From: a virus
Virus record (IMG/VR): IMGVR_UViG_3300043419_000898
Span: 1-64,000 of that record
DNA length: 64,000 nucleotides
Reading direction: 5' to 3' (one strand)
Shown: one piece after another, positions 4,960 to 58,003 of the stretch
How the letters are laid out: the number at the start of each line of letters is the position of its first letter
Numbering within the stretch: the first letter of the stretch is position 1
Made by a program: the position numbers and the translations under genes
The notes under the pieces: model-generated
What the model was told of the DNA's origin: nothing
The model's database searches: none
Seen by the model: only the letters and a program-made list of their open reading frames with translations

Positions 4960-5241
4960 ATGGTAGAAGTTGGCGTTGTCATTAAGTGGCACACCGGTAC
5001 GCTGAAGGGTAAGTACTCATACCCATACATTGATGTTCCAAGCATTGACGACAAGTATGTACTTGCCGAGTTATCCGAGATTATTCCGGGCAAACTTGGA
5101 GTTGACTGGGATGTGGTTTCCAAGGAAGAGTTGCGCTCAAACCACTTCAACAATGCTGGTGAGTTTACACAAGATTACTTAGCAGATAGAGCATACGCAC
5201 GTCAGCGATGGCAAATTGCTCAAGTGGAGAAGTATTCATGA
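4960..5241 (+). CDS. Unknown early protein
   Basis: 93 residues, soluble, mixed charge, beginning MVEVGVVIKWHTGTLKG; no family recognised. It is the first gene of a (+) operon with an RBS just upstream and a promoter at 4900-4928. Its stop overlaps the next start (ATGA at 5238-5241). Confidence 0.75.
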   Translation: MVEVGVVIKWHTGTLKGKYSYPYIDVPSIDDKYVLAELSEIIPGKLGVDWDVVSKEELRSNHFNNAGEFTQDYLADRAYARQRWQIAQVEKYS

Positions 5242-5813
5242 ACGATGTACTAGGCTACGAACAAGAGCCGTTTATTGTTGATGTCGAGACGGGTGAAGTT
5301 GTCAGTATCCGCCCTAACTGGTTGCCAGAGATTCTTACAACTGCTGCCGATATCGAGATGTTCATGGACAAGTTGTCCATTGAAGAAGCAAAGATTGAAG
5401 CACTTGTAGCACGACGCAAGCAAATCTTAGAGAACTTGGACGGCATGATTAACCGGCACACCAAGAAGCGTGACTACCTCATGACTCGTTACGGCTCACA
5501 ACTCCGTGATGTTGCCTTAAGGAACCTTCCACGTGACCGTAAGACATATGAAACACCATTCGGCTCAGTGACTTTCCGTAAAACTCAGCCTAAAATCATT
5601 GTCAAGGACACAGAAAAAGCCATTGATACGGTTTCTGTTGTTTGTCCAGAAGCAGTCAAGGTAGAACGGTCAATCTTGGTTTCCAAGTTGTCTGATGAAA
5701 TCAAGACAGAACTTCTTACGGATGAATCACGCAGAGAAGAACTTGGCTTTGACGTTGAGCCGGAAAAAGACTGCATCAAACTAAACATCATGCAGTGGAA
5801 AGTCGAACTATGA
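5238..5813 (+). CDS. Gp157/Gam-like protein
   Basis: 191 residues from the coupled ATGA start at 5238; an in-frame upstream start at 5208 would overlap the previous gene by 34 nt and was not used. Residues about 35-85 form a charged helix (EEAKIEALVARRKQILENL), followed by TPFGSVTFRKTQPKI and EVERSI-like segments. This layout, a coiled coil then a small domain with a TPFG-x-x-x-F-R-K core, resembles the Siphovirus Gp157 family and the Gam nuclease inhibitors. Known relatives have been linked to protection of phage DNA, so that role is inferred here. It is followed directly by dUTPase. Confidence 0.5.
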   Translation: MNDVLGYEQEPFIVDVETGEVVSIRPNWLPEILTTAADIEMFMDKLSIEEAKIEALVARRKQILENLDGMINRHTKKRDYLMTRYGSQLRDVALRNLPRDRKTYETPFGSVTFRKTQPKIIVKDTEKAIDTVSVVCPEAVKVERSILVSKLSDEIKTELLTDESRREELGFDVEPEKDCIKLNIMQWKVEL

Positions 5814-6337
5814 GTACAGAAGAAAAACAACCAACGCCTCCTAAGTTCCAGAAGGTTATAAAGAAATCGGTAGCCACTCCAGAACCTATCAAAACAGTTC
5901 TACCGGGTGCACTACCAGTTCAGATTGAACTTGGCGCAGATGCCTCCATGCCTACAAAGGCAACCACTGGTTCAGCCGGATTTGATGTGAAAGCATCCGA
6001 ACGCAAACTTATCCATGCTGGTACGGCAAAACTTGTCAAGACCGGCATTAAGTTGGCTATCCCAGCCGGTTATGAAGCACAAGTCCGCTCACGTAGCGGT
6101 ATGTCGCTCAACCACAACGTCATTGTGTTGAATGCGCCGGGGACGATTGACTCTGACTATCGTGGAGAAGTCGGTGTTATCCTTATGAATGTCGGCAAGC
6201 AAGACTATGAAGTAGAAGTTGGCGAGAAGATTGCACAACTTGTATTTGCCAAGGTTGCAGACATCGAGTTCAAAGAAGCGGTCATTGCATCTGACACAGT
6301 ACGTGGTGAAGGCGGTTTCGGTAGTACGGGAGCATAA
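5810..6337 (+). CDS. dut: dUTP diphosphatase (dUTPase)
   Basis: Hydrolyses dUTP to dUMP and pyrophosphate, which keeps uracil out of phage DNA and supplies dUMP for ThyX. The trimeric dUTPase motifs are in order: AGFDVKA (56-62), RSRSGMS (93-99), GTIDSDYRGE (111-120), GEKIAQLVF (138-146) and the Gly-rich RGEGGFGSTG (165-174). A basic extension of about 35 residues precedes the core and is not part of the family. Start chosen at the ATGA overlap with the previous gene. Confidence 0.96.
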   Translation: MSTEEKQPTPPKFQKVIKKSVATPEPIKTVLPGALPVQIELGADASMPTKATTGSAGFDVKASERKLIHAGTAKLVKTGIKLAIPAGYEAQVRSRSGMSLNHNVIVLNAPGTIDSDYRGEVGVILMNVGKQDYEVEVGEKIAQLVFAKVADIEFKEAVIASDTVRGEGGFGSTGA

Positions 6338-6339
6338 GT

Positions 6340-7479
6340 ATGCCTAAGGTCTTGAATGTCGGCACTGCTGATATAGAAATCAGTCAACTCAAGCATCATC
6401 CTAAGAATGCCAACGTTGGAAACGTTGATGCCATCAAGGAGTCACTTGCCACTAACGGTTTCTTTGGACGTGTACTGGTCAATAAGAACACCATGCACAT
6501 CCTTGCTGGAAACCACCGTGTCAAAGCAGCGAGAGAACTTGGCTGGAAGACTGTACCAGTAGAGTTTGTGGATGTAGATGCAGAAGCAGAACTCCGCATC
6601 CTACTTGTTGACAACAAGACAGCCAGAATGGGTGTTGACGACGACGAGAAACTCTTGGAGATTCTGGAAGAACTCAACACCTTCGAAAGTGGACTATCCG
6701 GAACCGGATACAACGAAGACGACTTGTCTTTTCTTCATGAAATTATCAGTGGTGAAGACGAACCACTTGAACGAAACTCTCGTGTATCTGAAGAAGAAGA
6801 AGAAGAGTACGACGCTCGTGATACCCCTTGGCACTTCATGCATACGAAGTTTCCATCCGATAACGATTACGGAATCCCCTTACTTGACTTGAACCAACAA
6901 GCACGTTCAGTTATGACACCTATCATCACTTGGGGAGCCATTAGCCGTAAGAAGCAATTTGGTGGTACGTACAACATGTACACCGAAGACAGACGATGGG
7001 AAAACCTTTGGAAAGACCCAACACCTATCGTCAAGTCTGGCTGTACTGCTGTGACTGAGTTGAACTACTCAACAAACAACGACTACGCTGACATACAAGT
7101 ACTCTACGATATTTATCGCAAACGTTGGCTTTCGAGATATTGGCAGTCGTATGGTATCCAGATTTATGTTGACCTCAACATCGCAAATGAACATTTCGAT
7201 AAGGCTCTTATTGGAGTGCCACAAGGATGGGGAGCATACGCAAGCCGATTCAACGTTATGTTTGACCGTGGAACGGACGTGATGGAGTATCAGTTGGCTG
7301 TCGCCAAAGAACGAGCCGGAACAACACCACTCCTTGTCCTACTCATTGGTGGTGGCAACAAAGCAAAAGATTACTGCCGCAAGAACGGATATGTCTGGGC
7401 ACCAGAACAGATTGAAGTCAATACCGGCAAGACAAAGAACGCCATCTTGATTGGCGATGAGGAACGAGAGAATGTTTGA
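6340..7479 (+). CDS. ParB-like nuclease domain fused to DUF4417
   Basis: 379 residues. Residues about 1-95 are a ParB/sulfiredoxin-like domain with the signature LAGNHRVKAARELG and a preceding LKHHPKNAN. An acidic hinge (SEEEEEEYD) follows at about 150. Residues about 185-370 resemble DUF4417, with WENLWKDP, YRKRWLSRYWQSYGI and VLLIGGGNK segments. The function of DUF4417 is not known; ParB-like domains in phages bind or cut DNA or hydrolyse CTP. A second ParB-like protein without the C-terminal domain lies at 41259-41879. Confidence 0.75.
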   Translation: MPKVLNVGTADIEISQLKHHPKNANVGNVDAIKESLATNGFFGRVLVNKNTMHILAGNHRVKAARELGWKTVPVEFVDVDAEAELRILLVDNKTARMGVDDDEKLLEILEELNTFESGLSGTGYNEDDLSFLHEIISGEDEPLERNSRVSEEEEEEYDARDTPWHFMHTKFPSDNDYGIPLLDLNQQARSVMTPIITWGAISRKKQFGGTYNMYTEDRRWENLWKDPTPIVKSGCTAVTELNYSTNNDYADIQVLYDIYRKRWLSRYWQSYGIQIYVDLNIANEHFDKALIGVPQGWGAYASRFNVMFDRGTDVMEYQLAVAKERAGTTPLLVLLIGGGNKAKDYCRKNGYVWAPEQIEVNTGKTKNAILIGDEERENV

Positions 7480-7768
7480 CGAGTCGAAGATTATCCCTAA
7501 GCACTACAACGACGTAAAGTCAGATATTTCAGCACGTTCTGTTTATACGAACTGGAAACTAAACGGCGACCTATCAATGGTGGTCAAGTACATCAAGAGA
7601 GCCGGAAAGAAGCCGGGTGAAGATGTATCCAGTGACTTGTACAAGTGCCTCTGGTATCTAGTTGCAACTCTTACAAATGATGAAGAGATTGCCGGAAAAG
7701 TCGTGAAGTACTGCGGTGAACTACAGTCTACTTGTCAAAAGCCGACTTCCGACGAACAGAGCGAATAG
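7472..7768 (+). CDS. DUF3310-like protein
   Basis: 98 residues from MFDESKIIPKHYND; this start overlaps the previous stop by 8 nt and has a purine-rich RBS. The features KPKHY-like start, VVKYIKRAGKK and DLYKCLWYL match the small DUF3310 family found next to phage nucleotide-metabolism genes. The molecular role of the family is uncertain. It is last in the (+) operon; its end overlaps the convergent gene by about 40 nt. Confidence 0.7.
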   Translation: MFDESKIIPKHYNDVKSDISARSVYTNWKLNGDLSMVVKYIKRAGKKPGEDVSSDLYKCLWYLVATLTNDEEIAGKVVKYCGELQSTCQKPTSDEQSE

Positions 7769-17088: not shown

Positions 17089-17325
17089 CTAATCTGTGTC
17101 TTCAACCTTAGCCTTTAGCATATCCACGCAGTATCTTGCATCGTTGACATGAGCCATAGCCTGAAGCAAGTCTTGGTACAACTGCTCAGTGTCTTGGTTA
17201 CCGTACTCAAACTCACGACGTGATGCTAAACGCTGCATCTCACGGATAGTCAAAGTAAGACTAGTATCAGCCGCCGTCATGACCAACAGTATCGCCGTTG
17301 ATAAGTTGTTTACGCCGTCTTTCAT
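17089..17325 (-). CDS. Small helical protein at the end of the spike array
   Basis: 78 residues, MKDGVNNLSTAILLVMTA at the start, then charged helices (TREFEYGNQDTEQLYQDL-like) and an acidic end. Start overlaps the end of the first spike gene by 4 nt. Unknown; may be a chaperone or a trimerisation helper for the spikes (inference from position). Confidence 0.65.
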   Translation of the reverse strand: MKDGVNNLSTAILLVMTAADTSLTLTIREMQRLASRREFEYGNQDTEQLYQDLLQAMAHVNDARYCVDMLKAKVEDTD

Positions 17326-19115
17326 AGGTTGCTTACCACTAGTTTCATTGGACCGTACAAGACCGTGTCAGAGCCACCATTGTTACGTACAACATAGATG
17401 TTATACGAACCGGGCGTATTGGTAACAGTCGTATCTAAAGTAAAGGTCAACTCACCATTTGACTGATACTGGATGACTGTTGGATAGGATTCAACAAGGT
17501 TATTGAGCGAGTAGACTTCTACTGTACATGCTGCTGTTCCGATAGGCACTGGTTTATTGTGTACATCCACCATCTGTAGTTTGACGGTAATTGACGAACC
17601 TTTGATTACATCGAGTATTCCGTTTGCGCCCATCTGGTCAGATATGAGCTTGTATCCAGTGGTTGTTACGAACGTATAGTTGCGTAGGTCAATAGTTATG
17701 ACCGCACCATTAGTACCAGACGCTCCTCTAACAACAACAGTACAGTCGTCAGCACCACCAACAAGTGCTTCGTCAGGTATGTCTAGACGATATACACCGG
17801 GCATTCCAACTGGGTCTACTTCAGCAAACCCACCAGCAACCCACGGCTGAGTTATCGTACGGGCTACCAGCGGGATTGATACGCTTGCTGTGCGTGTACG
17901 GTTGTAGCGGGCTGATAGACCAGAGGTAGAGGCGGTTAGACCGGTAGCACCGAGATAGAGTTCGATGGATTGGGAGGTGCTTCCGGGAGCGATTGTGATG
18001 GTTGAGGCGTTGCGTTCTGTTGGAGTGTAAAAAGATGCTCCTACGATAGTTTGTCTTGCCAACGCTCCAATATCAGTCCCTGATGTCCAGTTATACCCAT
18101 ATTGGTCTGTAGTAGGCGCACCAGATGATGTGCCAGCACCAATCAATGGACTATTGAGATAAGGACTAAAGAATGCAGTTGGAATAGCAGCGGTCAACAT
18201 TGTTGCCCCTAAATCTAGTCCTGTTAAACCTGTTCGTGAATTGACACCAACATCAACTCCGCTTCTTGTGATGGTTGATGCAATCCGATTGTAGTCTTCA
18301 ATAAGTCTGCCGGTTGCATTAGATGCAAGTGATGTTCCACCGTAAATCTGAAATAAAACGCAGTTTCGTATATTTGATGGATTTGTTGTATTCGACGACC
18401 GAACACTAACACCTAGGTCTTGATGTAAAAATACAGAGTTATAGATTGAGACTCCGTTACCAACTGTAATGGTGTTATACGTTGGACCATCAACTATTAT
18501 GCCATTGTTGCACAAGAACAAGCAATCGGTTACCGATGTATTAAAGTTATAAGCCGAACCTGTTGTTTGACCTTCAATATATAATCCAACATCGCCATAA
18601 AAAATACATTTACTTATTGTTGAATCTAGAGGATTATTAGCAGATGTAGCTAATCGCACAATCCCTCTAGCACCACCACTTTGCGCAGACCACGTTGAAA
18701 ACACGCAGTTTTGCAATGTTATATTTCTTGCACTTGTAAATTGCGTATAACCATTACCAACTATATGCACATTTTGTAACGTCACATAAGTTTTAGCGCA
18801 GGTTAATATATTCCCAAATGTCGGAACAACATTGTCTGATGCAAAATTTGTCATCAAAACAATGTTTGGAGTTACTCCAGAAAATTGTGATGCGACAGGG
18901 TCTCCAGAGATTACGAGCGTTTGACTAACTGATGGCGTAACCGTCACTGTAGGAGATTCTCGGTAGATACCGGGCGCAATATATAAATAATTCGCACCAC
19001 TCGTTAAAACCATATTGGCTAATGCATAAGTAATAGTTTGCCACGCCTGATTTGCAGCTGAACCAGTGCCTGCGTTGGCATTATTGCCGTCTGTCCTAAC
19101 GTAATAAGTCGCCAT
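17322..19115 (-). CDS. Beta-helix spike-like protein 1
   Basis: 597 residues, one of seven paralogs. Domains: DUF1565-like entry (YYVRTDGNNANAGTGSAANQ, then LYIAPGIYRES; residues 1-55), a right-handed parallel beta-helix of variable sequence with Asn-rich turns (about 60-345), a conserved beta domain from ERNASTITIAPGSTSQSI (about 368) to VVRGASGTNGAV (about 480), and a C-terminal Ig-like domain of about 95 residues ending YGPMKLVVSNL. The variable middle between conserved ends fits a receptor-binding spike or a set of virion decorations. Overlaps its neighbours by 1-4 nt. Confidence 0.75.
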   Translation of the reverse strand: MATYYVRTDGNNANAGTGSAANQAWQTITYALANMVLTSGANYLYIAPGIYRESPTVTVTPSVSQTLVISGDPVASQFSGVTPNIVLMTNFASDNVVPTFGNILTCAKTYVTLQNVHIVGNGYTQFTSARNITLQNCVFSTWSAQSGGARGIVRLATSANNPLDSTISKCIFYGDVGLYIEGQTTGSAYNFNTSVTDCLFLCNNGIIVDGPTYNTITVGNGVSIYNSVFLHQDLGVSVRSSNTTNPSNIRNCVLFQIYGGTSLASNATGRLIEDYNRIASTITRSGVDVGVNSRTGLTGLDLGATMLTAAIPTAFFSPYLNSPLIGAGTSSGAPTTDQYGYNWTSGTDIGALARQTIVGASFYTPTERNASTITIAPGSTSQSIELYLGATGLTASTSGLSARYNRTRTASVSIPLVARTITQPWVAGGFAEVDPVGMPGVYRLDIPDEALVGGADDCTVVVRGASGTNGAVITIDLRNYTFVTTTGYKLISDQMGANGILDVIKGSSITVKLQMVDVHNKPVPIGTAACTVEVYSLNNLVESYPTVIQYQSNGELTFTLDTTVTNTPGSYNIYVVRNNGGSDTVLYGPMKLVVSNL

Positions 19116-19342
19116 TATTCGGCATCTCCACTAATAATCTGTTGAGCCATAATCACTGCGAACTGTTGCACGATGCCATACTGAAACTGCTCATCCTGCA
19201 TCACCCACCAGACGTTGACCGATGTTCCATCATGTCCAAACGCTCCAAGGATGTTTCCAGCATCGTCTTCAATGTCACCAAATACACGCCAATCAGTAGA
19301 CGGTGCAGGTTCCTTTTCAATGCGGAAGTTTTGCAGGTTCAT
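19115..19342 (-). CDS. Spike-satellite module (75 aa)
   Basis: MNLQNFRIEKEPAPSTDW, then VFGDIEDDAGNILGAFGHDG, a Trp-Trp pair (VWWVMQDEQFQYG) and QQFAVIMAQQIISGDAE. The same module occurs at 25274-25564 and twice in tandem at 31012-31458, always beside spike genes, so it probably serves them, as a chaperone or linker (inference). No family recognised. Confidence 0.7.
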   Translation of the reverse strand: MNLQNFRIEKEPAPSTDWRVFGDIEDDAGNILGAFGHDGTSVNVWWVMQDEQFQYGIVQQFAVIMAQQIISGDAE

Positions 19343-19488
19343 TTGCCCACCTTCAAAGCACTTGCCTGAACACCCTTGAAAGGCATCGTGAGGAACGCCA
19401 GCACACTAGACACCGCAGCGGAGACTCCAGCCGCTACAGCCTTGCTCCCATATACCGCCATCACTGCTCCGTAGACCGTAGTATTCAT
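19339..19488 (-). CDS. Small hydrophobic protein between spike genes (49 aa)
   Basis: Starts MNTTVYGAVMAVYGSKAVAA and ends QASALKVGK. Residues about 4-35 are small and hydrophobic, which may form one membrane span. Its start overlaps the upstream spike stop (TAATG at 19486-19490) and its stop overlaps the next start (ATGA at 19339-19342), so translational coupling supports it as a real gene. Function unknown. Confidence 0.65.
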   Translation of the reverse strand: MNTTVYGAVMAVYGSKAVAAGVSAAVSSVLAFLTMPFKGVQASALKVGK

Positions 19489-21512
19489 TACCGTCTCCTA
19501 ACCCTTAGCATCATAGGTCCATGTATAGCAGTATCAGCACCGCCATTATTGCGCCTTGCGTATACCTTGTAATCGCCAGCCGTAGTAGTCACTACAGTAT
19601 CGAGAATAAACGTCATCTCACCGTTTGACTCATACTGAATTGTCGGCGTATAGGTAGATATAAGGTTCCCAGATGAGTACACCTCTACGGTACACGTAGC
19701 GGCTCCTATAGGCACTGCTGTGTTGTACGTATCAACTATCTGCAACTTTACAGTTGTTGATGTACCTTGGATGATATCTAGTTCACCGTTTGCACCGAGT
19801 TGGTCAGATATCAACTTGTAGCCGGGAGTACTGATAAGCATAGATGCTTGGTCAAACTCTACGGTCACATATGCACCGTTAGTGCCAGATGCACCCTTGA
19901 TAGTAAACGATGCTGTAGTAGTGTTGGCGGCTATCATCGCATTAGGAATATCGAACCTATAAAGTCCCGGCATCCTAACTGCATCTACTTCACAGAAGCC
20001 ACCAGATACCCACGCTCCAGTTGGTGTCTGAGCAACCAGCGGTACGGTCACTGTAGCACTGTTGTTTCTGACGTAGTAGCAAACTAAGTTAGGCGTGTCG
20101 AATGATATGCCCGTAACACCTAGGAAGACATAAGTTGACTGACTTTGCGAACCGGGTGTAGTCCTGAATGTCGTTGTCTGTCGTTCTGATGGTATGTACT
20201 GTCCAATAGTAGATAGGTCAACTCTGTTAGCCATACCGACAGTTGGTGCGGAACCAGTTGGATATGCAGTGCCAAACGCATCTGTTGTGTATCTAAATCT
20301 ACGATGCTGGATAGTTCCAGCAGTGGATGGAGTAAGACCAGTACAAGTGAAGGATGTAGTTCCGGTGACTGTTGCTACAGTGTATGTTTGCAGAGCAGTG
20401 ATGTTGCCGAGTGTAGTCAAGAATTGAATCTTGTCACCAACAACATAGACGTTTCCACCAAGCGGAATTTCGGCAGAACCAGCAGTGATTCCAACAGATA
20501 GAGAGTTTGGAGTGCCGGATGAGATGAGGTTACTACCAAGGCGTGGTGCATACCAGTCGTTTACACCAAGACCAAATAGTCGTTCCATACCGTGAGATAG
20601 TGTTGGGTTACATATAACATTATTACTACCTACCGCTGTATTGAGTGCTACATTTGCGTAACCACTTTGAATCATACTTGATTTGTTGTAATCCGCATAA
20701 ATAGCATTAGCGATATTTGCTTGACAGTAGTTAAATGTAATCTGTTGTGCGTAGTTGTTGTAGTATTTTGCTTGCAATGTTGCATCAGTTACACCGGACA
20801 CTTCTAAGCACCTGTGTACTTGGTGAAACGTATTATTAAATACAAGCGTATTTGCAGGAGTATATCCAGTTAAGAATATTGCCCCGTTTCCAGCACCATT
20901 TGCGTTTCCACCACCGGTGAAATAATTGTTGGCAATGACTGTATTTGACTCTATTGCTGATGAGCCAGCATGAGTAACTTGTAATATCACACTACCTACA
21001 GCCGTCCTGCATAAGACTATGTTGTCAGTGAAAATAAAATTTAATGCCACATTGTTTGGGCTGCCGATAGTGCCAACATTACTCCAACAAATAAATGCAC
21101 ATTGGTCTACAATCCAGTTTGTACAAGTAGTTGCACTAAAACCGGTGTTCCAGTTTTCAAACAACAACTTACGAAAAGTTAAAAAGTTCTTTGATGTAGC
21201 AGTAAGAGCAGTTCCACTATAGTTAACTTGTGCGTTATCAGCCGCCGTAGATGTAATACGGACTACACCCGGTGTGATGTCGCTAAACTGAGTACACGTA
21301 GGGTCACCAAGTATGTTTGTCTGAACAGTAGCCGAAATCATAGCGACAGTCAACGTCTCGTTGTATCGACCCGGTGCAATGTAAACCGTATCACCGGACG
21401 AGATACCAGCCGCTCCTAGTGCCTTCTGTATAGTCTGCCAAGCCTGAAGCCGACCGGGTCCTAAACCAGTGTTAGCATCACTACCATCGTTACGGACATA
21501 GTATGTAGGCAT
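19488..21512 (-). CDS. Beta-helix spike-like protein 2
   Basis: 674 residues, the longest paralog. The extra length comes from an insertion at about 345-425 (AGSAEIPLGGNVYVVGDKI, TYTVATVTGTTSFTC) that is not in the others. Entry motif YYVRNDGSDANTG, beta-helix, conserved domain with WVSGGFCEVDAVRMPGLYRF, and an Ig-like end (HGPMMLRVRRR). Other features as for paralog 1. Confidence 0.75.
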   Translation of the reverse strand: MPTYYVRNDGSDANTGLGPGRLQAWQTIQKALGAAGISSGDTVYIAPGRYNETLTVAMISATVQTNILGDPTCTQFSDITPGVVRITSTAADNAQVNYSGTALTATSKNFLTFRKLLFENWNTGFSATTCTNWIVDQCAFICWSNVGTIGSPNNVALNFIFTDNIVLCRTAVGSVILQVTHAGSSAIESNTVIANNYFTGGGNANGAGNGAIFLTGYTPANTLVFNNTFHQVHRCLEVSGVTDATLQAKYYNNYAQQITFNYCQANIANAIYADYNKSSMIQSGYANVALNTAVGSNNVICNPTLSHGMERLFGLGVNDWYAPRLGSNLISSGTPNSLSVGITAGSAEIPLGGNVYVVGDKIQFLTTLGNITALQTYTVATVTGTTSFTCTGLTPSTAGTIQHRRFRYTTDAFGTAYPTGSAPTVGMANRVDLSTIGQYIPSERQTTTFRTTPGSQSQSTYVFLGVTGISFDTPNLVCYYVRNNSATVTVPLVAQTPTGAWVSGGFCEVDAVRMPGLYRFDIPNAMIAANTTTASFTIKGASGTNGAYVTVEFDQASMLISTPGYKLISDQLGANGELDIIQGTSTTVKLQIVDTYNTAVPIGAATCTVEVYSSGNLISTYTPTIQYESNGEMTFILDTVVTTTAGDYKVYARRNNGGADTAIHGPMMLRVRRR

Positions 21513-23374
21513 TACAGTCTCCTAACCTTCAAAGCAAGCGGTCCATAAACAACACTATCTGAAGCACCAGCAGAGCGTACACAGTAAACATTGTAGTCGC
21601 CAGCAGTAGCCGTTACAGTGCTTGTAAGAACAAACGACAACTCACCGTTACCAGCATACTGAACAACCGGCGTATATGTTGCTACTAAGTTGTTGTTGCT
21701 ATTGTAGACTTGCACAGAACATGTTGCAGTACCAATATTGACTGGAACATCATACATATCCAACAACTGAATCTTAGTGGTTACCGTAGAGTTCTGATTG
21801 AGTTCAAGAATGCCGTTGTTTCCACTGTCTTCTGAGTACAACTTAAACTCATTGGTTGATACTAGTGATGATGTTGCTGGATTCTCGATGTTGACGTTTA
21901 CGAATGCACCATTGAAAGCGTTAGCACCACGTAGCATGATAGACGCTGATTTAGCACCAGCAAGCATCACGTCGTTAGGGATGTCGAACTTATAAACACC
22001 GGGCATTGTTGTTGATGACACTTCGAACAAGCCACCAGATACCCAAGTAGAAGCGTTACCAGCAACTAGTGGGACGTATACGGTAGCACCATTGTCACGA
22101 GCGTAGTAGCACGTCAAGTTAGGCGTTTGATAGTTTACGCCAGTGGAACCTAGGTAGACGTGTACTGAGACTCCAGTGGAGCCTGATGTGACTGTGATTG
22201 TTTGGATTGCTCTGTCTAGAGGTACGTAGCCAGCAGTTGATGGGATAGTAGATACTTGCCTGTTATCCATATATCCAATAGTCGGATTTGCTTGATTCCA
22301 AATATTGTTACTGAAATCATATGTAGGCGTACTGAAATTACCAAATGTTGTATTCGCACCAGCACCAATTATCGCAGAACCAAGTAAAGGTGTGTATGGT
22401 AAGTATTGATATACACTCTCCTTGTATCCTTCTTGTATATCAACTGGCATCGAGTTCAATGTTACGTTTCCAGTACCGGGTCCAAAACTGTTATTACTTA
22501 AAACAAATCCTGCATTATATGATTGCTGAACTTGATTACTAAAGTCATTTGTAAATGTGTTTGTGACCGGAACACTTAATATTAAACAGTTCGTAACCGT
22601 CATGGCTGGTCTACCACTCCATGCGTTGCAAGCAAAAATATAATTAGGTTGATTTCTGCCGGGGGCAAGTGTACAGTTCCAATAGTTTGACATATATGTG
22701 TTATTGGAATTGGCTTTACTTGCTTGAAGATGATAGAAATTTGTAACAGTACCACCAGAGTTAGTGTGTGATGCTCTATCTGCATTTATACATGCAGTCA
22801 TAAAACATGATGCAAATAAAACAGTACAAGCAACAGGGTAGTTTGCATTATTGAAATATGCTGGAAATTCAAATAAAGAACAACGCCTAAACGAAACCGT
22901 CATAACTGGGCTTTCATTAATTTGTGTAAATGACGATTCCTTACAACCAGCATACACAACGCAATCATCAAAAAATACGGACGGACTACTAGTAAATGTC
23001 ATCCACCCGTCAAATCTAAGATTCCTGAACGTATAGAATCCCTTTGAAGAAAGCGTCAATACTGCGCCAGATGGAGCAGTGGCGTCATTCGTCAAGTTAT
23101 TACTTATTCTGACAACACCGGCAGTGAGACCCGTTCCCCACGCAACTTGAGTTAGTGATGCATCACCACGAACATCAATATTCAATGACTGCAATGTAAT
23201 AGTCGGAGATACATTCTCTCGATACACACCCGGTGCAATCCAAACTGTATCTCCGCCAACTGCTACAGATAACGCTTTGTTGACAGTCCTAAATGCACCA
23301 GTGCCACTCGCATTAGTAGGTGCTAATCCTGTATTAGTATCGTTGCCATCAGGTCTTACATAATATGTAGGCAT
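21512..23374 (-). CDS. Beta-helix spike-like protein 3
   Basis: 620 residues. The first 55 residues (YYVRPDGNDTNTG, FRTVNKALSVAVGGDTVWIA) and the last 250 are close to those of paralog 4, so the two are a recent duplicate pair. The helix part (about 60-330) differs strongly. Ends YGPLALKVRRL. Joined to its neighbours by single-nucleotide overlaps. Confidence 0.75.
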   Translation of the reverse strand: MPTYYVRPDGNDTNTGLAPTNASGTGAFRTVNKALSVAVGGDTVWIAPGVYRENVSPTITLQSLNIDVRGDASLTQVAWGTGLTAGVVRISNNLTNDATAPSGAVLTLSSKGFYTFRNLRFDGWMTFTSSPSVFFDDCVVYAGCKESSFTQINESPVMTVSFRRCSLFEFPAYFNNANYPVACTVLFASCFMTACINADRASHTNSGGTVTNFYHLQASKANSNNTYMSNYWNCTLAPGRNQPNYIFACNAWSGRPAMTVTNCLILSVPVTNTFTNDFSNQVQQSYNAGFVLSNNSFGPGTGNVTLNSMPVDIQEGYKESVYQYLPYTPLLGSAIIGAGANTTFGNFSTPTYDFSNNIWNQANPTIGYMDNRQVSTIPSTAGYVPLDRAIQTITVTSGSTGVSVHVYLGSTGVNYQTPNLTCYYARDNGATVYVPLVAGNASTWVSGGLFEVSSTTMPGVYKFDIPNDVMLAGAKSASIMLRGANAFNGAFVNVNIENPATSSLVSTNEFKLYSEDSGNNGILELNQNSTVTTKIQLLDMYDVPVNIGTATCSVQVYNSNNNLVATYTPVVQYAGNGELSFVLTSTVTATAGDYNVYCVRSAGASDSVVYGPLALKVRRL

Positions 23375-25272
23375 TAGAGATTATTTACCTTTACAGCAAG
23401 CGGTCCAAATACGGCTCTGTCGGTAGTACCACCAGCACGTATTGCATACACGTTGTAGTTACCAGCCGTATTCGTAACAGTGCCGTCAATCACAAAGGTT
23501 ACCGCACCGTTTGACGCATACTGCACAGTCGGCGTGTACGAACCTATCAGCACGTTAGCAGAAGAGTAAACTTCAACGGACATCGTTGATGAACCAATGT
23601 TTACGGCAGTTCCGTTAGTATCTGCTATCTGACACTTGATTGTTGTTACTGTTCCTTTATTGACTGTAAGTACACCATCAGAACCAGCATATTCAGACAA
23701 CAACTTGTACCCAGTTGTAGATAAGTAAGCCGACTGAGCCGGTTGCTTGATATTGATGTTGACATACGCTCCGTTGAACGCATTAGCACCACGCAGCATT
23801 ATGGATGCAGTAGACGCACCAGAAGATATGACTTCGTTAGGTATGTCGAACTTGTATACACCGGGCATCGTTACGGCAGATACTTCGTAGAGGCTACCAG
23901 AGACCCATGTAGAGGCGTTACCAGCAACTAGCGGTATGTTTACCGATGTGCCGTTATTACGTGCGTAGTAACAAGTAAGGTTAGGTGTCTGGAAGGTTAC
24001 TCCGGTGGAGCCTAGGTAGACGTGTACTGACTTGCCGGTTTCAGCCGCTGTGACCGTGACTGTTTGGATAGAACGGTCTAAAGGTACGTAGCCACCTGCT
24101 CCCGGTACAGTTGCTATAACCCTGTTATCCATATACCCAACAGTTGGGTTAAGTTGATTCCACAGATTGTTAGAAAAGTCAGTTGTTGGTGTTGTCCATG
24201 TTGTCGTACCAACTGTTACGGACTGTGTACCAGCACCTATGACTGGACTAGCCGGTAGTGGTGTATGTGGTACGTAGTTAAATACACCTTGACTGTATCC
24301 GTCATTTATGTCTATTGGTGCATATTGAAGTGTGACAGAGTTAGCACCAGATGCAACACTAGACCGGGTTATGTTGATACCGTAATTGTAATTCTCAACA
24401 ATTCCTGAAGCCACAGACCTAAATGTAGCAGTAGTTGCAGTAGCAAGTATTAGGCAGTTGATTACTATGAAATTACCTGTCGTCCCACCAACGTTGTCAT
24501 TCCATATGTACGAAGGAGTTGTGCGCCCCGGTAAAACAGTGCAGTTAAAGAAACGTACATGCGTAGTTCCCTGAGCACCTGCACCAGCCTCCATACTCCA
24601 ATAAAAAGTACCAAGTACTGCTGGGCTTTCACAGACATAAAACAAGCAATCTACAAAAGACAGACGTTCATCAACACTTACATTTAACTGCGCACGACCA
24701 AATCTCATAGGCACGTTACTGAACGTACATCGAAGGAATTCTATATTCCAAACATACCGGTCACCCAGATTGCTATATCCAAAAAATTCAGTAAGTTGAC
24801 CATTCCCAGCAAACTGACAATCAGTAAATCTATGTCCTGAACCACGAGTGTTATCAGTCGTATCCCAAAATGCTACACATCTAAATGAGCCATCTATGCG
24901 TATCTTTGAGAAGTCATAAAACCTTCTAAGTGTTGCATAGTTAGTACCTAAGTCTAATGTAACACCGGAAGGAGTTGATGAGTCGTTTGTTAGTTGGTTC
25001 GTAAGCCTAATCACACCAACGGTCAACCCAGAACCCCAAGGAACTTGAGTAAGCGTCGGGTCGCCTTTGACATATATGTAAGTGTTTTGAGCCGCAGTTG
25101 TAGGATAAACATTCTCCCTATACGTACCGGGAGCAATCCAAACCGTATCACCGCCAACCGCTACACTAAGTGCCTTGTTGACAGTCCTAAACGAACCAGT
25201 ACCAGCGGCGTTAGTTGGAGCAGTGCCGACGTTTAGGTCGTTGCCGTCTGGTCTTACATAGTAAGTAGGCAT
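23374..25272 (-). CDS. Beta-helix spike-like protein 4
   Basis: 632 residues, partner of paralog 3. Its helix part carries different strands (for example YDFSKIRIDGSFRCVAFW). Conserved domain from VPLDRSIQTVTVTAAETG with YEVSAVTMPGVYKFDIP, and Ig-like end FGPLAVKVNNL. Preceded by a satellite gene at 25274-25564. Confidence 0.75.
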   Translation of the reverse strand: MPTYYVRPDGNDLNVGTAPTNAAGTGSFRTVNKALSVAVGGDTVWIAPGTYRENVYPTTAAQNTYIYVKGDPTLTQVPWGSGLTVGVIRLTNQLTNDSSTPSGVTLDLGTNYATLRRFYDFSKIRIDGSFRCVAFWDTTDNTRGSGHRFTDCQFAGNGQLTEFFGYSNLGDRYVWNIEFLRCTFSNVPMRFGRAQLNVSVDERLSFVDCLFYVCESPAVLGTFYWSMEAGAGAQGTTHVRFFNCTVLPGRTTPSYIWNDNVGGTTGNFIVINCLILATATTATFRSVASGIVENYNYGINITRSSVASGANSVTLQYAPIDINDGYSQGVFNYVPHTPLPASPVIGAGTQSVTVGTTTWTTPTTDFSNNLWNQLNPTVGYMDNRVIATVPGAGGYVPLDRSIQTVTVTAAETGKSVHVYLGSTGVTFQTPNLTCYYARNNGTSVNIPLVAGNASTWVSGSLYEVSAVTMPGVYKFDIPNEVISSGASTASIMLRGANAFNGAYVNINIKQPAQSAYLSTTGYKLLSEYAGSDGVLTVNKGTVTTIKCQIADTNGTAVNIGSSTMSVEVYSSANVLIGSYTPTVQYASNGAVTFVIDGTVTNTAGNYNVYAIRAGGTTDRAVFGPLAVKVNNL

Positions 25273-25273
25273 A

Positions 25274-25564
25274 CTAACCCTCCTGCGGTGGAACTGGGTT
25301 CAGGATAGCGTCAGCCATATGTTGAAGGAACATATCAACCCAGCCTGACTGCTTGTCCAATGGTTGTGTAGTAAAGAACTGAAACAACGAAGTACCTTGT
25401 GGCACTCCTTCAGCGTCTGGATTGTTGAATGTCCCTAAGATGTAGGCAGGGTCAGGATTTTGCGGGTCGTAAAACTCGCTGACAATATCTCCAAACACTT
25501 TCCAGTCGTTTGTTTCTGGTACGTGTTCTTTTCGGATGTTTGCGAAACTGTTATTGAGACCCAT
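25274..25564 (-). CDS. Spike-satellite module, longer form (96 aa)
   Basis: MGLNNSFANIRKEHVPETND, then WKVFGDIVSEFYDPQNPDPA with an insertion compared with the 75-residue form, LGTFNNPDAEG and a hydrophobic helix (MFLQHMADAILNPVPPQEG). Diverged homolog of the 19115-19342 product, judged by DW-x-VFGDI and LG-x-F. It lies 17 nt from the neighbouring spike gene. Unknown function. Confidence 0.6.
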   Translation of the reverse strand: MGLNNSFANIRKEHVPETNDWKVFGDIVSEFYDPQNPDPAYILGTFNNPDAEGVPQGTSLFQFFTTQPLDKQSGWVDMFLQHMADAILNPVPPQEG

Positions 25565-25581
25565 AGTAATTTAGTCTAACC

Positions 25582-27360
25582 TTATGGCGATAACACTTCA
25601 AGTTTCATACGACCAAAGACGTTTATCTCAGAACCTATCTGCCGTGAAATATTGATGGTGTACATACCAACAACATTAGTCACCGTAGCGTCTATAGCAA
25701 ACGAGTATCTGCCGTCTTCAGCGTATTTAGCAGTACAAGGGTACGAGTCAACCAAGAAGCCAGCACTGTTGTAAGCATTAGCAGTAACGACTGTGCCTGT
25801 ACCATCTACGCCTGTGCCGTACTGGTCAACCATCTTGAAGTCGATTGAGTGGATAGAACCCTTGAACAGTTTGAGGCGTTCGTCTGTGAGTACACCATCT
25901 GCTTGTACGGTAAATGGACCCATACGTACTTGTGAACCAAGGATAGGTGGTTCTTGAATAACAACAACTGCACCGTTAGTTCCTGATGCACCTCTAACCG
26001 TAACCACTGTCTGGGTGTATGCGGCAGATATTGCTGCGTTAGGTATGTCTAGTCGATACACGCCGGGTTGATTAGCCGCACTGACTTCTGCAAAACCTCC
26101 GGATACCCATGCGCCTGTTGTTGTTTGTGCTACTAGTGCAATAGATACTGGAGCGGCATCTTCCTTAGTGTAATAGGCTTGAAGACCGGCGGTTGTAGCA
26201 GTAAGACCTGTAGCACCTAAATATAGGTAGAGTGAGCGGGATGTTGAGCCAGCGGTGATACTGATTTGGGTAGTTTCATCTAAGTTAGGTAAGTATGTAC
26301 CGATACCTGTGAGTGTTCTGTATTTTGCAACTCCAATATCAGGATTAGTGCCCCATGCTTGACCATACATATCGACAGTTGGTGCACCTGAAAGCAATCC
26401 AGCAAGAGCATTGGGGCTGTTAAATGTATTTCCAAATATCTGTACTGGACCATAGCCTTGAAGTAGGCTTTGACCAAAATCCAGACCAGACCATGATGCA
26501 ACTGTTGTATTTGCACCTTGAGCCACATTTAGTCTATTATTAACACCGTAAACACGGTTAAAGTTTTCGGTTACACCTAAGTTTAGGTTAGATTGAAACG
26601 CATATGTGCCTGTTGCATAAATTAGACAATTGTAAATATTTATAACTCCTGAGCCTGAAATATGAGCCTGCGAAGTCCTAAATGGTGTTGAACCCATTAG
26701 TACACAGTTATAAATATTCACACCCGACAAAAGATAAGGATTGTATCCAGTATTTTGGTCTGTAAGAAAAATTGCGTTTTCACCTGTTAGGACACAATCA
26801 CTTAAAGCAAAACCAACATTTTGTGCTGACCCTAAATTCCTATAGTTGTATTGAATCCCGTTCACTGTCCCAGTGAAAACACTTTGCTTGACAACTGTAT
26901 TGAAGTTTGAATTGGTAGTACCGCTAAACGTAAATGCCGATGTTGTTGCCGATGTACTAAAACATAAACACCTTTCAACCGTTAAATTAGTACTAGTTGC
27001 TATGTTTAATCCACCAATAATTAAGTCTCTGAATGTCAGGTTATTCTTACTTGTTCCAGTAATAGCGTCGGATGTTGACACAGTGTTGTCATTAATCGCT
27101 GGGGTAATTCTAACTTCACCTGCCGATACACCAACAAACTGTGAAGCAGTTGGGTTACCGTAGATATTCGTCGCTGATGCGTACGTGCCACCAATCGTAA
27201 CTGTTTCCCTATACGTACCCGGTGCTATCCACAACGTGTCCCCACTAGTTATGCCACTTGCACTTAGTGCTTTTGCTATAGTTCGCCACGCTGTAGATGC
27301 AGTTGAACCTAAGCCCGTATTAGCGTCGTTGCCATCCGGTCTTACATAATACGTAGCCAT
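25582..27360 (-). CDS. Beta-helix spike-like protein 5
   Basis: 592 residues. YYVRPDGNDANTGLGST and LWIAPGTYRETVTI entry, helix to about 340, conserved domain with YYTKEDAAPVSIALVAQ and WVSGGFAEVSAANQPGVYRL, and Ig-like end ending FGRMKLEVLSP. Its conserved part is closest to that of paralog 6 (both have LQAYYTKED), which suggests a second duplicate pair. Confidence 0.75.
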   Translation of the reverse strand: MATYYVRPDGNDANTGLGSTASTAWRTIAKALSASGITSGDTLWIAPGTYRETVTIGGTYASATNIYGNPTASQFVGVSAGEVRITPAINDNTVSTSDAITGTSKNNLTFRDLIIGGLNIATSTNLTVERCLCFSTSATTSAFTFSGTTNSNFNTVVKQSVFTGTVNGIQYNYRNLGSAQNVGFALSDCVLTGENAIFLTDQNTGYNPYLLSGVNIYNCVLMGSTPFRTSQAHISGSGVINIYNCLIYATGTYAFQSNLNLGVTENFNRVYGVNNRLNVAQGANTTVASWSGLDFGQSLLQGYGPVQIFGNTFNSPNALAGLLSGAPTVDMYGQAWGTNPDIGVAKYRTLTGIGTYLPNLDETTQISITAGSTSRSLYLYLGATGLTATTAGLQAYYTKEDAAPVSIALVAQTTTGAWVSGGFAEVSAANQPGVYRLDIPNAAISAAYTQTVVTVRGASGTNGAVVVIQEPPILGSQVRMGPFTVQADGVLTDERLKLFKGSIHSIDFKMVDQYGTGVDGTGTVVTANAYNSAGFLVDSYPCTAKYAEDGRYSFAIDATVTNVVGMYTINISRQIGSEINVFGRMKLEVLSP

Positions 27361-40933: not shown

Positions 40934-41290
40934 ATGTTTGAGCAAGTAACGTATTTAACTTTCGGTGTGACCGTAGCGTCATCTATCTTCATCGGTATGG
41001 TGCTTGGGTATCAACTTAAGTACATGGGTGAGCAGAAGTCAGATGACATAGTTCCTGCTGGGACAAAGGTTAGGTTCATGACACGAGCCGGTCACTACTC
41101 ATATGGAATTGTTCTTGAAGACTTTGTTGAGACAAAGAGTAAGTTCATCGTCGTTCGAAACGTAGAGTGGAAGATGAACGAGTCAAGTGTTGAGGCACAT
41201 GAAGGATACAGAATCTTCCCTATCCGTATCAAAGAAGGCGTGACACTACTCGGCACCGGTGAATGGACAACCGAAGACTACCTTGGTTAA
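40934..41290 (+). CDS. Membrane-anchored small beta protein
   Basis: 118 residues. One N-terminal membrane span (FGVTVASSIFIGMVLGYQL, about 10-28), then a soluble part with GTKVRFMTRAGHYSYGIVL, like a small SH3-type barrel. Unknown role. RBS GGAGCGTGAG upstream. Its end overlaps the ParB-like gene by 32 nt. Confidence 0.65.
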   Translation: MFEQVTYLTFGVTVASSIFIGMVLGYQLKYMGEQKSDDIVPAGTKVRFMTRAGHYSYGIVLEDFVETKSKFIVVRNVEWKMNESSVEAHEGYRIFPIRIKEGVTLLGTGEWTTEDYLG

Positions 41291-41879
41291 ACGACTCACC
41301 GTTGCAACAGAAGATGTAGATGTTGCATTACTTAAACAGCACCCAAGAAACGTCAATCAAGGCGACTTGGGTGCTGTCATTTCGTCTATCCAAACTAATG
41401 GCTTCTACGGTCGCCTAATCGTCAACAGGCGTAACAATCACGTCCTAGCGGGGAATCATCGTCTGATGGCGGCAAAGTCGCTACAGATGGAAACTGTGCC
41501 CGTAGAGTGGGTTGATGTTGATGAAGACGCAGAGATTCGCATCTTACTTGCAGACAACCGTACGACTAGGTTGGGTCTTGATGACAACGTCGCATTAACT
41601 GCCTTACTTGCCGAGTTGGCGAACACAGAAAAGCAGTTAGACGGTACAGGCTATGACTTTGACGACTTGAATAATTTCATATCAGACATAGCAAGAGAAG
41701 AACTTCAACTAACAACAGACACCTATGACAAACTAGTCCCACGGATAGCACATCAAGGTCAGACGTGGGAATTAGGCGACACGCTTTTAGTTGTTGGTTT
41801 CAATGAAGAAGACTGTGACCGATTGATAGTCACTTGGGAAAAACTAACTAAAGGAAAGGCAGTTCTGAAAGATGGATGA
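41259..41879 (+). CDS. ParB-like nuclease domain protein
   Basis: 206 residues. Residues 15-110 match the ParB/Srx domain: LLKQHPRNVNQGDL, GFYGRLIVNRRNN and LAGNHRLMAAKSL. VEWVDVDEDAEIRILLADNR is almost the same as VEFVDVDAEAELRILLVDNK in the 6340-7479 protein, so the two are paralogs. No DUF4417 part here; instead a short C-terminal domain (GQTWELGDTLLVVG). Upstream of terminase it may bind the packaging site, as in other phages with ParB-like genes there (inference). A TTG at 41283 is an alternative start. Confidence 0.78.
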   Translation: MNGQPKTTLVKRLTVATEDVDVALLKQHPRNVNQGDLGAVISSIQTNGFYGRLIVNRRNNHVLAGNHRLMAAKSLQMETVPVEWVDVDEDAEIRILLADNRTTRLGLDDNVALTALLAELANTEKQLDGTGYDFDDLNNFISDIAREELQLTTDTYDKLVPRIAHQGQTWELGDTLLVVGFNEEDCDRLIVTWEKLTKGKAVLKDG

Positions 41880-42450
41880 AGATGAAGTCACACCAATAGA
41901 CTTATCTGTTCCTGAGAGCCGAGACTCTATCAGGGAACAACTTACCGCTCCGCTATTTGACGAGTATCACGCCAGACGTAAAGCACTCGTCAGTAGTGCT
42001 AGACCAGATGGTCACGCATACGGCGGAAACCCACTCTCTATTGACGATGAAAAGATGAAGGTTATACTTGACGCTATCCTTGCAGGTGCTTCGCACTCAG
42101 TAGCGGCTCAGGTAGCAGGTGTGCCTGTAAGGCGATTGAAAGACTGGATTCAGCGTGGAGAGAGCGGTGACCTAAACGTACCTACGGAGCTTGTAGAGTT
42201 TGCACGTCGTGTACGCATGGCTGAGAGCCGTGGAGAGTTAGGTTTGATAGTTCGCATCCGTCGTGCTGCGGAAGAGAACTGGGGTGCTGCTGCGTGGCTT
42301 CTTGAACGCAGACATAGCAAGCGTTGGGGCAAGAAAACTCAAGTTGATGTGAGGCAGATGACAGATGAGCAAATTACAAGACTCCTTACGGCAGAAGCTG
42401 ATGGAGGAAGCGATACGGCGGGGCTTGAGGATTCCGGGGACGACGAGTGA
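41872..42450 (+). CDS. terS: Terminase small subunit
   Basis: 192 residues. A helix-turn-helix at about 65-95 (ILAGASHSVAAQVAGVPVRRLKDW, split by turns) and a C-terminal region WLLERRHSKRWGKK usual in small terminases. It recognises the packaging site and hands DNA to the large subunit. Overlaps the ParB-like gene by 8 nt and the large subunit by 86 nt. Confidence 0.82.
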   Translation: MDEDEVTPIDLSVPESRDSIREQLTAPLFDEYHARRKALVSSARPDGHAYGGNPLSIDDEKMKVILDAILAGASHSVAAQVAGVPVRRLKDWIQRGESGDLNVPTELVEFARRVRMAESRGELGLIVRIRRAAEENWGAAAWLLERRHSKRWGKKTQVDVRQMTDEQITRLLTAEADGGSDTAGLEDSGDDE

Positions 42451-43816
42451 TATCTACAACCCTTACAAGGATGGTGTTGAGAAAGGCTCGATGGAGTCCT
42501 TTCATGAGTATCTAAAACTTACACTCCCAAAGGGATGGACTGCTGAACCAGCACACATCAAACTCATCGCTGAGCATCTCGATGCAGTAGACCGTGGACA
42601 GATTGACCGTTTGGCAATCTCAATGCCCCCTAGACATGGCAAAACCGAGACCACTACTGTCCGTTACGGTGCATATGCGTTCGAAAGAAATCCTAGGGAC
42701 AACGTCCTTGTAACCGCATACAACGAACGTATTGCACGTCGTTTTAGCCGTAAGGCAAGAGCGATTGTGGAAGCAAGACGTCAACTCATGACTAGCAGTC
42801 GTGCTGCAGACGAATGGGGCATGCCAGAAGGCGGCACATTTATGAGCCGTGGTGTTGGTTCTCCTCCTACTGGTGTAGGTTTTAAGAGAATCATCATTGA
42901 CGACCCTATCCGCCGACGTGAGGACGCTGAAAGCGTAAACCTGCGTGAGAAGGCTTGGGACTGGTTCACTGACGATATCTATACTCGTTTGGAGCCGGGT
43001 GGGGCAATGATTATCGTTGCTACTCGATGGCATCACGACGACATCATCAGCCGTGCCATTGACTCTGAGGCTAACAAGTGGGTTGTTCTAAAACTCCCTG
43101 CAATCGCAGAAGAGGCTGACCAGTTAGGACGACAACCGGGTGAGTCACTTTGGCCAGAGCGTTACTCCGTGGAAGACTTGATGCGTATCAAAGCCGTCAT
43201 GCTTCAGAACGAAGGTGAGTACGGCTGGCAAGCGTTGTATCAACAGTCACCAACCCAGCGTTCTGGTGCGATGATACGCCAAGACCGAATCTCTGCATTC
43301 CAAGAACTACCACTTTCGGTGGGACGGTTCCGACGTGTTGTACGTGCTTGGGACTTGGCATCTACTCGTGGTGCTGGAGACTACACCGTTGGAGTCAAGG
43401 GTGCTCTTGATAACATCGGACGCTTCTGGATACTCGATGTAGTTATCGGTCAATTCGACGTTGATGAGCGTGACAACATCATCTACAGAACTGCTGAGAT
43501 GGATGGTAAGGATGTCACTATACGGCTTCCACAAGACCCAGCACAGGCAGGAAAGAGTCAAGCCAGATACTTACTCAGAATGCTTCATGGATACCGTGTA
43601 AGCATCCAAAGTCCATCTGGAAACAAGACGCTAAGGGCTGAACCGTTTGCGGCTCAGGTAAACAACTTTAACGTCAATATGATAGCCGCCGCATGGAATA
43701 CACCTGTTCTCGATGAGTTCAGACAATTTCCTATGGGGCGGCATGATGACATCGTTGATGCAGCAGTTGACTGCTATGACGAATGTACAAAAAAGAGGAC
43801 TATGTCTTTCGCTTAG
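42365..43816 (+). CDS. terL: Terminase large subunit
   Basis: 483 residues. Walker A-like SMPPRHGKTE (86-95), Walker B IIIDDP (176-181), and the RNase H-like nuclease domain with Asp330 in VVRAWDLAST and DD461-462 in GRHDDIVDA. It drives DNA into the prohead and cuts concatemers. The ATG at 42365 lies inside terS; a later Met (42401) would shorten the overlap. Both ends of the gene overlap neighbours. Confidence 0.94.
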   Translation: MSKLQDSLRQKLMEEAIRRGLRIPGTTSDIYNPYKDGVEKGSMESFHEYLKLTLPKGWTAEPAHIKLIAEHLDAVDRGQIDRLAISMPPRHGKTETTTVRYGAYAFERNPRDNVLVTAYNERIARRFSRKARAIVEARRQLMTSSRAADEWGMPEGGTFMSRGVGSPPTGVGFKRIIIDDPIRRREDAESVNLREKAWDWFTDDIYTRLEPGGAMIIVATRWHHDDIISRAIDSEANKWVVLKLPAIAEEADQLGRQPGESLWPERYSVEDLMRIKAVMLQNEGEYGWQALYQQSPTQRSGAMIRQDRISAFQELPLSVGRFRRVVRAWDLASTRGAGDYTVGVKGALDNIGRFWILDVVIGQFDVDERDNIIYRTAEMDGKDVTIRLPQDPAQAGKSQARYLLRMLHGYRVSIQSPSGNKTLRAEPFAAQVNNFNVNMIAAAWNTPVLDEFRQFPMGRHDDIVDAAVDCYDECTKKRTMSFA

Positions 43817-49631: not shown

Positions 49632-50204
49632 ATGAACTTACCAGATAAAAAATACGACGTTGTCTTGATGGACCCACCTTGGTACTACGGTAACAAGACT
49701 GGTATGGCTGCGGCTGAAAAGCATTACCGAACCATGAAGGATGACGACCTAATGGCTCTTGATGTCCCATCGTTACTAAAGCCTACGTCAGTAGTTTTCT
49801 GTTGGGCTACGGGTCCACGCCTTGACTTTGCTATGCAACTCATGGCTCACTGGAATCTGCATTATCGCTGCATGGCTTTTGTATGGGTAAAGACTACGAA
49901 AGCGGGTGTGCCGTACGGAGCTAGGGGCATACGACCAACAATAGTAAAACCAACAACTGAGTTCGTGTTGGCATGCTCACCTATGAGGAAAGGACGACCT
50001 ATGCAACCACAAGACCTAACTGTCCCACAAGTCCTTATGGCGTCTCCCATGGAGCACTCACGCAAGCCAGAAGATATCCACGAACGTATTGACCGTTTGT
50101 ATCCCGATGCAACAAAGCTGGAGATGTTTGCTAGGCGTCCATATAAGAACTGGGACATATGGGGAAATGAAGTTGGTTATATAAGCGAAGAGGCTCCTGA
50201 ATAG
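49632..50204 (+). CDS. MT-A70 family DNA adenine methyltransferase
   Basis: 190 residues. DPPW at 14-17 after YDVVLM is the catalytic motif for N6-adenine methylation; CFWATGPRLDFAMQLM and RPYKNWDIWGNEV are family features, and EHSRKPEDIHERIDRLYP is typical of phage forms. It would mark phage DNA against host nucleases. It is a separate unit between two terminators. Confidence 0.92.
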   Translation: MNLPDKKYDVVLMDPPWYYGNKTGMAAAEKHYRTMKDDDLMALDVPSLLKPTSVVFCWATGPRLDFAMQLMAHWNLHYRCMAFVWVKTTKAGVPYGARGIRPTIVKPTTEFVLACSPMRKGRPMQPQDLTVPQVLMASPMEHSRKPEDIHERIDRLYPDATKLEMFARRPYKNWDIWGNEVGYISEEAPE

Positions 50205-57896: not shown

Positions 57897-57931
57897 TTAG
57901 GGGGTATGAGTAATGTCGGTTAGGATTTTTT

Positions 57932-58003
57932 GGGCAGTTAGCTCAACGGTTGAGCAGCAAACTCATAATTTGTTGGTTAGGGGTTCGAATCCCTTACTGC
58001 CCA
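57932..58003 (+). tRNA. tRNA with CAU anticodon (Met, or Ile2 if modified)
   Basis: A complete 72-nt cloverleaf: acceptor GGGCAGT/ACTGCCC, D stem GCTC/GAGC, anticodon stem GCAAA/TTTGT with loop CTCATAA (anticodon CAT), five-base variable loop, T stem AGGGG/CCCTT with TTCGAAT, discriminator A. CCA is not encoded. CAT may read AUG or, with lysidine at position 34, AUA. The TTGGTT stretch and the C-G pair at 4-69 recall tRNA-Ile2, but this does not decide it. The unit has its own terminator at 58069. Confidence 0.93.

Follow-up and report, generated by a model that had tools for sequence, protein, structure and literature searches.

The window, the 64-kb stretch analysed here out of an 82.5-kb virus record, carries on its plus strand a gene with an ATG start (6340..7479) whose 379-residue product joins a ParB-like domain to DUF4417. 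The ParB-type module occupies residues 1-140 (6340..6759) and includes a Pfam match to ParB_N (PF02195, residues 25-92, 27.2 bits against a cut-off of 26.3, E 4e-6). The DUF4417 domain, predicted to fold as a TIM-type barrel, covers residues 171-379 (6850..7479), with a Pfam match far above its threshold (PF14386, residues 172-302, 77.4 bits against 28.9, E 1.3e-21). With both domains above their cut-offs, the ParB-DUF4417 fusion described in the initial annotation is confirmed. It is the single DUF4417 match in a six-frame search of the whole record, and PHROG 940, a family labelled nuclease, spans its residues 11-348. Upstream, in the same gene run and on the same strand, Pfam identifies a Mu Gam-like protein (5208..5813) and, directly before the fusion, a dUTPase (5795..6337). 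Directly downstream lies a DUF3310-like protein (7451..7768, +), which scores 22.0 bits, below the cut-off of 24. A near-identity search with 8 kb gave no match in phages.

In the ParB module, Box II, which contains the GxxR known as the P motif (PMC12704722), reads GNHR (residues 57-60, 6508..6519, +). In an alignment of the window protein with 54 of 56 non-redundant relatives (A3; L050 and L020 stayed outside), the glycine is present in 47 of the 47 rows with a letter at this place and the arginine in 40 of 45. In the full-chain AlphaFold2 model (pLDDT 84.0, pTM 0.59), the ParB part aligns with KorB/ParB structures with Z values of up to 11.4 (KorB 8qa9, rmsd 3.2, 128 aligned residues). The N-terminal fold and GxxR are thus common to the fusion and to canonical ParB, KorB and Noc. 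Unlike these proteins, the fusion has no HTH family listed by Pfam, carries Box II in the form GNHR and remains below the TIGR00180 cut-off (ParB scores of 23.2 and 21.8 bits against 58.45).

Fusions of ParB to DUF4417 are among those that Kaljevic et al. (PNAS 2025, PMC12704722) report to be commoner in phages than in bacteria, so the architecture itself, with the same two Pfam domains, is not new. The window copy is found in an early-type gene run and is accompanied by a lone paralogue before terS. In the accessible text of PMC12704722, DUF4417 is called a domain of unknown function, and the NTP binders named there include no DUF4417 fusion. In the accessible parts of the literature searched, publications naming the domain give it no function, and a transglycosylase reading of it was not found. 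The fusion therefore belongs to a published architecture, and what is new is the transglycosylase-like lead on DUF4417 developed below.

A second ParB-like protein (206 residues, GTG start, 41259..41879, +) precedes the terminase genes, as had been noted initially. Its 3' end overlaps the start of terS (41872..42450, +; PHROG 4102, E 7e-22), which is followed by terL (42365..43816, +; family matches including PHROG). The ParB parts of the two proteins are identical at 70 of 140 residues (50%, E 5e-42), a likeness far above chance and longer than the motif on which the initial annotation had based their relationship. ParB_N scores 22.5 bits in the lone protein, under the Pfam cut-off of 26.3, and Box II is again GNHR, so that this key ParB motif is kept in both proteins. 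Both are also encoded on contig IMGVR_UViG_3300027193_000013 (L009, with 94% identity across its DUF4417 part; L192, 83% identical).

The C-terminal region of the lone ParB consists of the segment GQTWELGDTLLVVG (residues 167-180, 41757..41798, +) followed by 26 residues. This segment resembles the linker, or entry segment, of phage ParB-methyltransferases: for each of two such proteins, whose genes also directly precede terminase genes, none of 1000 shuffles reaches the score. The tail itself shows no such likeness: against the same two proteins its score is matched by 573 and 447 of 1000 shuffles, and searching phages with it yielded just one hit, to a RusA gene at a weak E of 4. Since the tail fails despite the matching entry segment, the idea that the lone ParB is an internally deleted ParB-methyltransferase was rejected, and just half of it stands. 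Four related contigs encode it at 83% identity and two short contigs at 100%, with the frame unbroken, so the lone ParB does not look like decay. It belongs to the same ParB group as the fusion and, lacking a methyltransferase domain, carries the seeming start of a ParB-methyltransferase linker. It could act as a partner or be a remnant of a ParB-methyltransferase.

Other features of the phage were recorded alongside. The window encodes a C5 cytosine methyltransferase (197-1777, +), an MT-A70 methyltransferase (49632-50204, +) and one tRNA-Met gene (57931-58004, +). On the minus strand, 17322-31012 holds seven near-tandem paralogous genes of about 600-670 residues, perhaps tail-spike-like, whose products all start with YYVRxDG and are 30-51% identical pairwise, some over about 260 residues only. 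Beyond the window, on the minus strand of the record at 67804-79896 (L169), ATGGAAAACACTAC (Met-Glu-Asn-Thr-Thr) occurs ten times directly after a TAAGATATAGAC-like stretch, with an exact TTGACA upstream in six of the ten. From their sequence, these places look like leaderless promoters with common first codons.

The ParB group of the fusion is found next to, or joined with, several DNA-modifying enzymes. The two ParB parts of the window match PHROG 723 (9e-41 for the fusion, 1.6e-38 for the lone protein), as does the ParB part of a phage methyltransferase (9e-47), whose gene is located directly before terminase. These ParB-N6/N4 methyltransferases (PHROG 498; prophiT46-2 gp50, Elener gp1) resemble the fusion in combining the same ParB group with another domain, the enzyme half being a methyltransferase in the PHROG 498 proteins and DUF4417 in the fusion. 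According to the accessible text of PMC12783734, DNA methyltransferases are frequent fusion partners of ParB domains, which also often lie near a phage cytosine carboxymethyltransferase.

A comparable association concerns DpdA. In bacteria, the ParB-like ATPase DpdB works with DpdA, though some Dpd clusters can reportedly do without it (PMC12839542, accessible text), and mycobacteriophage gene 1 has been suggested to be a dpdB homologue (PMC6392294, accessible text). Among 15 phage dpdA loci, a ParB-like gene was found beside dpdA or one gene away in seven, a proportion from loci hand-picked by feature names, partly for the ParB name, and thus from no random sample. The annotated ParB-like gene is adjacent in Quesadilla, Finch, Lephleur, phiSM and Sour, and one gene away in Hilltopfarm and Funsized. 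In 9g, Dp-1, R5C, Yong-L2-223, Baskent_P4_1, ART, PaMx25 and RHph_Y1_1, no ParB-like gene is annotated in the stretch around dpdA. The five of the seven partners that were scanned all match PHROG 723: those of Quesadilla, Finch, Lephleur and Hilltopfarm at 1e-51 to 4e-65, and that of phiSM at 5.7e-9, with PHROG 6392 being the best family for the Quesadilla protein. Of four scanned actinophage partners, the three from Quesadilla, Lephleur and Finch have no Pfam match at 0.01, and a Mic1 gene recorded as ParB has none in Pfam or PHROGs. DpdA itself is a separate gene of 240-430 residues in the 16 used, the longest being the dpdA-like gene of phage vB_DshS-R5C (L182 2683-3975, 430 residues), and differs in this from DUF4417, which is fused here. 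Since PHROG 723 proteins occur beside or within DpdA and methyltransferase systems, this ParB group accompanies differing DNA-modifying enzymes. In the fusion, DUF4417 stands where the enzyme would be, from which we infer that it may be such an enzyme itself.

DUF4417 is common in phages. A scan of viral contigs for the branch of the window protein (clade A) gave 155 places encoding a relative, and the 80 best loci were used. For the sister branch (clade B), a scan starting from proteins of Gordonia and Streptococcus phages gave 183, and 37 loci were extracted from the best 80; the two sets of places may overlap. Among the 80 clade-A ORFs, DUF4417 is preceded by a part with a loose GxxR pattern in 53 and by a long part lacking this pattern in 11; 15 ORFs are standalone DUF4417 and one is open at its start. 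In clade B, 33 of 37 are standalone and four have a ParB part, so that fused and separate forms exist in both branches. The pattern behind the GxxR count is permissive; by phmmer with the ParB parts of the window, 49 of all 117 DUF4417 ORFs are recovered. For conservation, 73 of 86 prepared rows were aligned (A7; 50 from clade A, 23 from clade B; L139 was dropped as short). Asp217 of the fusion (6988..6990, +) is invariant in all 73. In clade A, several polar residues are invariant (Asp217, Glu240, Asn242, Arg262 and Asp278); clade B does not share the clade-A residues E240, D278 and R303. Strand ends show only a mild rise in conservation (11 against 6.7 expected, P 0.04).

The initial annotation had suggested a link to packaging, which fits the wider family. 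In 57 of 80 clade-A loci (45 of the 61 with enough DNA; loci not dereplicated), the same strand carries a terL gene no more than 4 kb downstream, and in four of 80 it lies upstream. On the other hand, the sister branch shows it downstream in just 8 of 37 loci and upstream in one, and in the window phage about 35 kb separate the fusion from terL. These counts come from a terL search that grew from 47 to 83 hits over three rounds and was unconverged. A RuvC-like gene is located upstream in 26 of 80 clade-A loci, 25 of them at 0.46-0.59 kb, and in none of 37 clade-B loci. Neighbour genes could be read in 51 of 55 loci, four being missed by the simple ORF caller. The neighbours depart from the arrangement with RuvC-like and terL genes in the window, where they are dUTPase and a DUF3310-like gene, and in one relative (L010), which has ThyX and a DUF3310 gene. 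Near the fusion of Bacteroides phage Versailles there is a radical-SAM-like gene (20.7 bits, cut-off 29.5), and in Gordonia phage JSwag a standalone DUF4417 gene at the left genome end overlaps a gene for a VIP2-like ADP-ribosyltransferase (L008 430-1985).

Modelled on its own, the DUF4417 domain is predicted by AlphaFold2 to form a TIM-type barrel (pLDDT 93.1, pTM 0.90). All 50 matches listed by VIA for this model are TGT (best 5lps, Z 9.0, rmsd 3.6, 172 aligned residues); these span Z 8.2-9.0, seem by titles and numbering to be nearly all one protein, and, since VIA re-ranks Foldseek matches and shows none below Z 8.2, they do not give the margin over the next barrel. The full-length model likewise matches TGT (5lpq, Z 9.1; human TGT 7nq4, Z 8.7). 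Foldseek with the DUF4417 domain against the PDB gave no match at E 0.001 or better. Its mixed and weak list opens with a designed aldolase (E 0.033) and includes aldolases, malyl-CoA lyase, EAL and xylose-isomerase-like barrels, the best TGT being at E 0.12 (prob 0.85). Against viral models, two strong nameless matches (E 2e-9 and 3e-7), taken as DUF4417 kin, are followed by a phage queuine tRNA-ribosyltransferase (prob 0.91, E 0.013). On fold alone, the TGT likeness of the predicted barrel is a lead.

Profile comparisons point weakly in the same direction for clade B. With hhalign, its 23 A7 rows align to 10 phage DpdA rows over 94 columns with a score of 26.75 (E 0.0076, prob 5%). None of 200 column shuffles reaches this value (best 25.6), and the reversed profiles score 18.6 and 21.1. 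Remade alignments with 36 clade-B and 16 DpdA rows gave 23.8 (reached by one of 100 shuffles) and 24.1 (by none of 100), with 20.0 and 20.1 upon reversal; in that comparison, clade B scores between 10 and 19 against the controls QueC, QueE, FolE and QueD. The DpdA sets exclude L175, which has a stop in the matched stretch, and L171-L174, which are 95-100% identical to 9g. At the same setting, DpdA and bacterial TGT, accepted homologues, score just 23.5 and 26.5 over 22 columns. Rotation of the DpdA profile keeps the score (mean 26.4, n=50), as expected since the matched stretch is left whole, and rotation is thus no control. The split into clade B was tried after the whole-set comparison had failed: all 73 A7 rows against phage DpdA gave a prob of 0.3%, and the rerun scored 17.7, which one of 60 shuffles reached and the reversed DpdA profile exceeded (18.1). 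Clade A, the branch of the window, scored 20.3 against DpdA, a value reached by 4 of 100 shuffles and close to that of its QueC control (20.4). No direct match of clade B to bacterial TGT was seen (14.5 to 16.3); one TGT set was shallow, containing only near relatives of E. coli TGT (69-98% identical, 21 rows used). A sequence search of the PDB with A7 returned one row (E 2.1), a result that says little since the DpdA profile likewise misses TGT there. Found after several comparisons, the clade-B/DpdA profile match amounts to weak evidence of kinship. By comparison, DpdA2 was assigned to the TGT family by HHpred at 100% from deep alignments (PMC6884629, accessible text), a signal to which nothing among the DUF4417 comparisons here is comparable.

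The clade-B/DpdA match is collinear. It pairs residue 216 (Asp in clade B, Glu in the window) with DpdA Asp72 and the invariant Asp217 with Ser73; a GL/GI-x-VIPT stretch falls opposite GV-x-x-LPC of DpdA. In Zymomonas TGT, the catalytic Asp residues are D102 and D280, and DpdA keeps Asp72, Asp114 and Asp215 (9g numbering). At residue 356 of the fusion, the place of the second catalytic Asp, the TGT nucleophile, inferred from spacing, no invariant residue is present: clade A has E in 23, D in 13 and Q in 8 of 50 rows, and clade B has gaps.

The two families also differ in their surroundings. DpdA has adjacent preQ0 genes in the loci read, and none were found near DUF4417: QueC, QueD, QueE and FolE have no match at E 1e-3 in 160 DUF4417 loci, the window and L169, in a scan run without a positive control. 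DpdA likewise has no match in the 160 loci. The virus record contains no TGT match, and the 25 of 31 Pfam families listed for 81 of its ORFs include no preQ0 family; on these grounds, preQ0 modification by the window phage is not supported.

Taken together, we tentatively favour, at somewhat less than an even chance, a reading in which the fusion is a ParB plus DpdA-like protein that modifies DNA, or otherwise handles DNA bases; its DNA target, nucleotide binding, catalysis and base exchange are presumed. The ParB-type module, probably nucleotide-binding, would load or gate the fusion on DNA, and DUF4417 would be a divergent barrel, fold kin of TGT and of its DNA version DpdA. The fusion would then act on phage DNA ahead of packaging, working in one chain like DpdA together with the ParB-like protein that bacteria supply as DpdB and some actinophages as gene 1. 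With that pair it has in common a ParB of the PHROG 723 group and would share a TGT-like barrel, predicted in DUF4417. A bolder form of this reading, which we consider rather unlikely, is that DUF4417 belongs to the transglycosylase superfamily as a branch so far unrecognised, ParB-DUF4417 being a fused DpdB-DpdA-like machine, swapping a DNA base for one from outside the preQ0 pathway and marking DNA shortly before packaging.

The same gene order could be read in another way, doubtful but still to be reckoned with, in which the barrel is non-catalytic and the fusion binds DNA in an accessory or regulatory role between replication and packaging, in the order resolvase, ParB-DUF4417, terminase. 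The downstream terL genes and closely spaced upstream RuvC-like genes of clade A fit such a role, as does the absence of E240, D278 and R303 from clade B. However, the several polar residues invariant in clade A seemingly go beyond the needs of a scaffold, and terL is remote from the fusion in the window phage and seldom downstream in clade B. Less probable is that DUF4417 is an enzyme with some other base or nucleotide chemistry, whose TGT resemblance is merely barrel-like. It would agree with the aldolase heading the weak Foldseek matches and with the other barrels among them, and the neighbours (dUTPase and a DUF3310-like gene here, ThyX and DUF3310 in the relative) would suit it; yet DNA and TGT are what the ParB partner and the weak profile match between clade B and DpdA suggest.

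The remaining two explanations appear improbable. The initial annotation had proposed that both ParB-like proteins mark the same DNA sites for different tasks, i.e. that they bind one site and recruit different machines. Their ParB parts are indeed 50% identical and both proteins recur on the related contig, but no HTH family was found in either, the same ParB group elsewhere accompanies different enzymes, and the proposal is not supported. We know of no DNA site shared by the two proteins. That the fusion is a ParB-type nuclease is slightly more improbable still: the label of PHROG 940 and the Versailles and JSwag records say nuclease, but neither Pfam nor NCBIfam lists a nuclease family in the fusion, for which reason this was dropped as the lead reading. 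Furthermore, since the JSwag gene (of which L089 is a copy) has no ParB part, the nuclease label may be an annotation carry-over.

If the favoured reading is correct, DUF4417 as a transglycosylase-like DNA enzyme would extend phage DNA modification by one family. It would also give this ParB group a common role as the partner of DNA-modifying enzymes, be they methyltransferases, DpdA or DUF4417.
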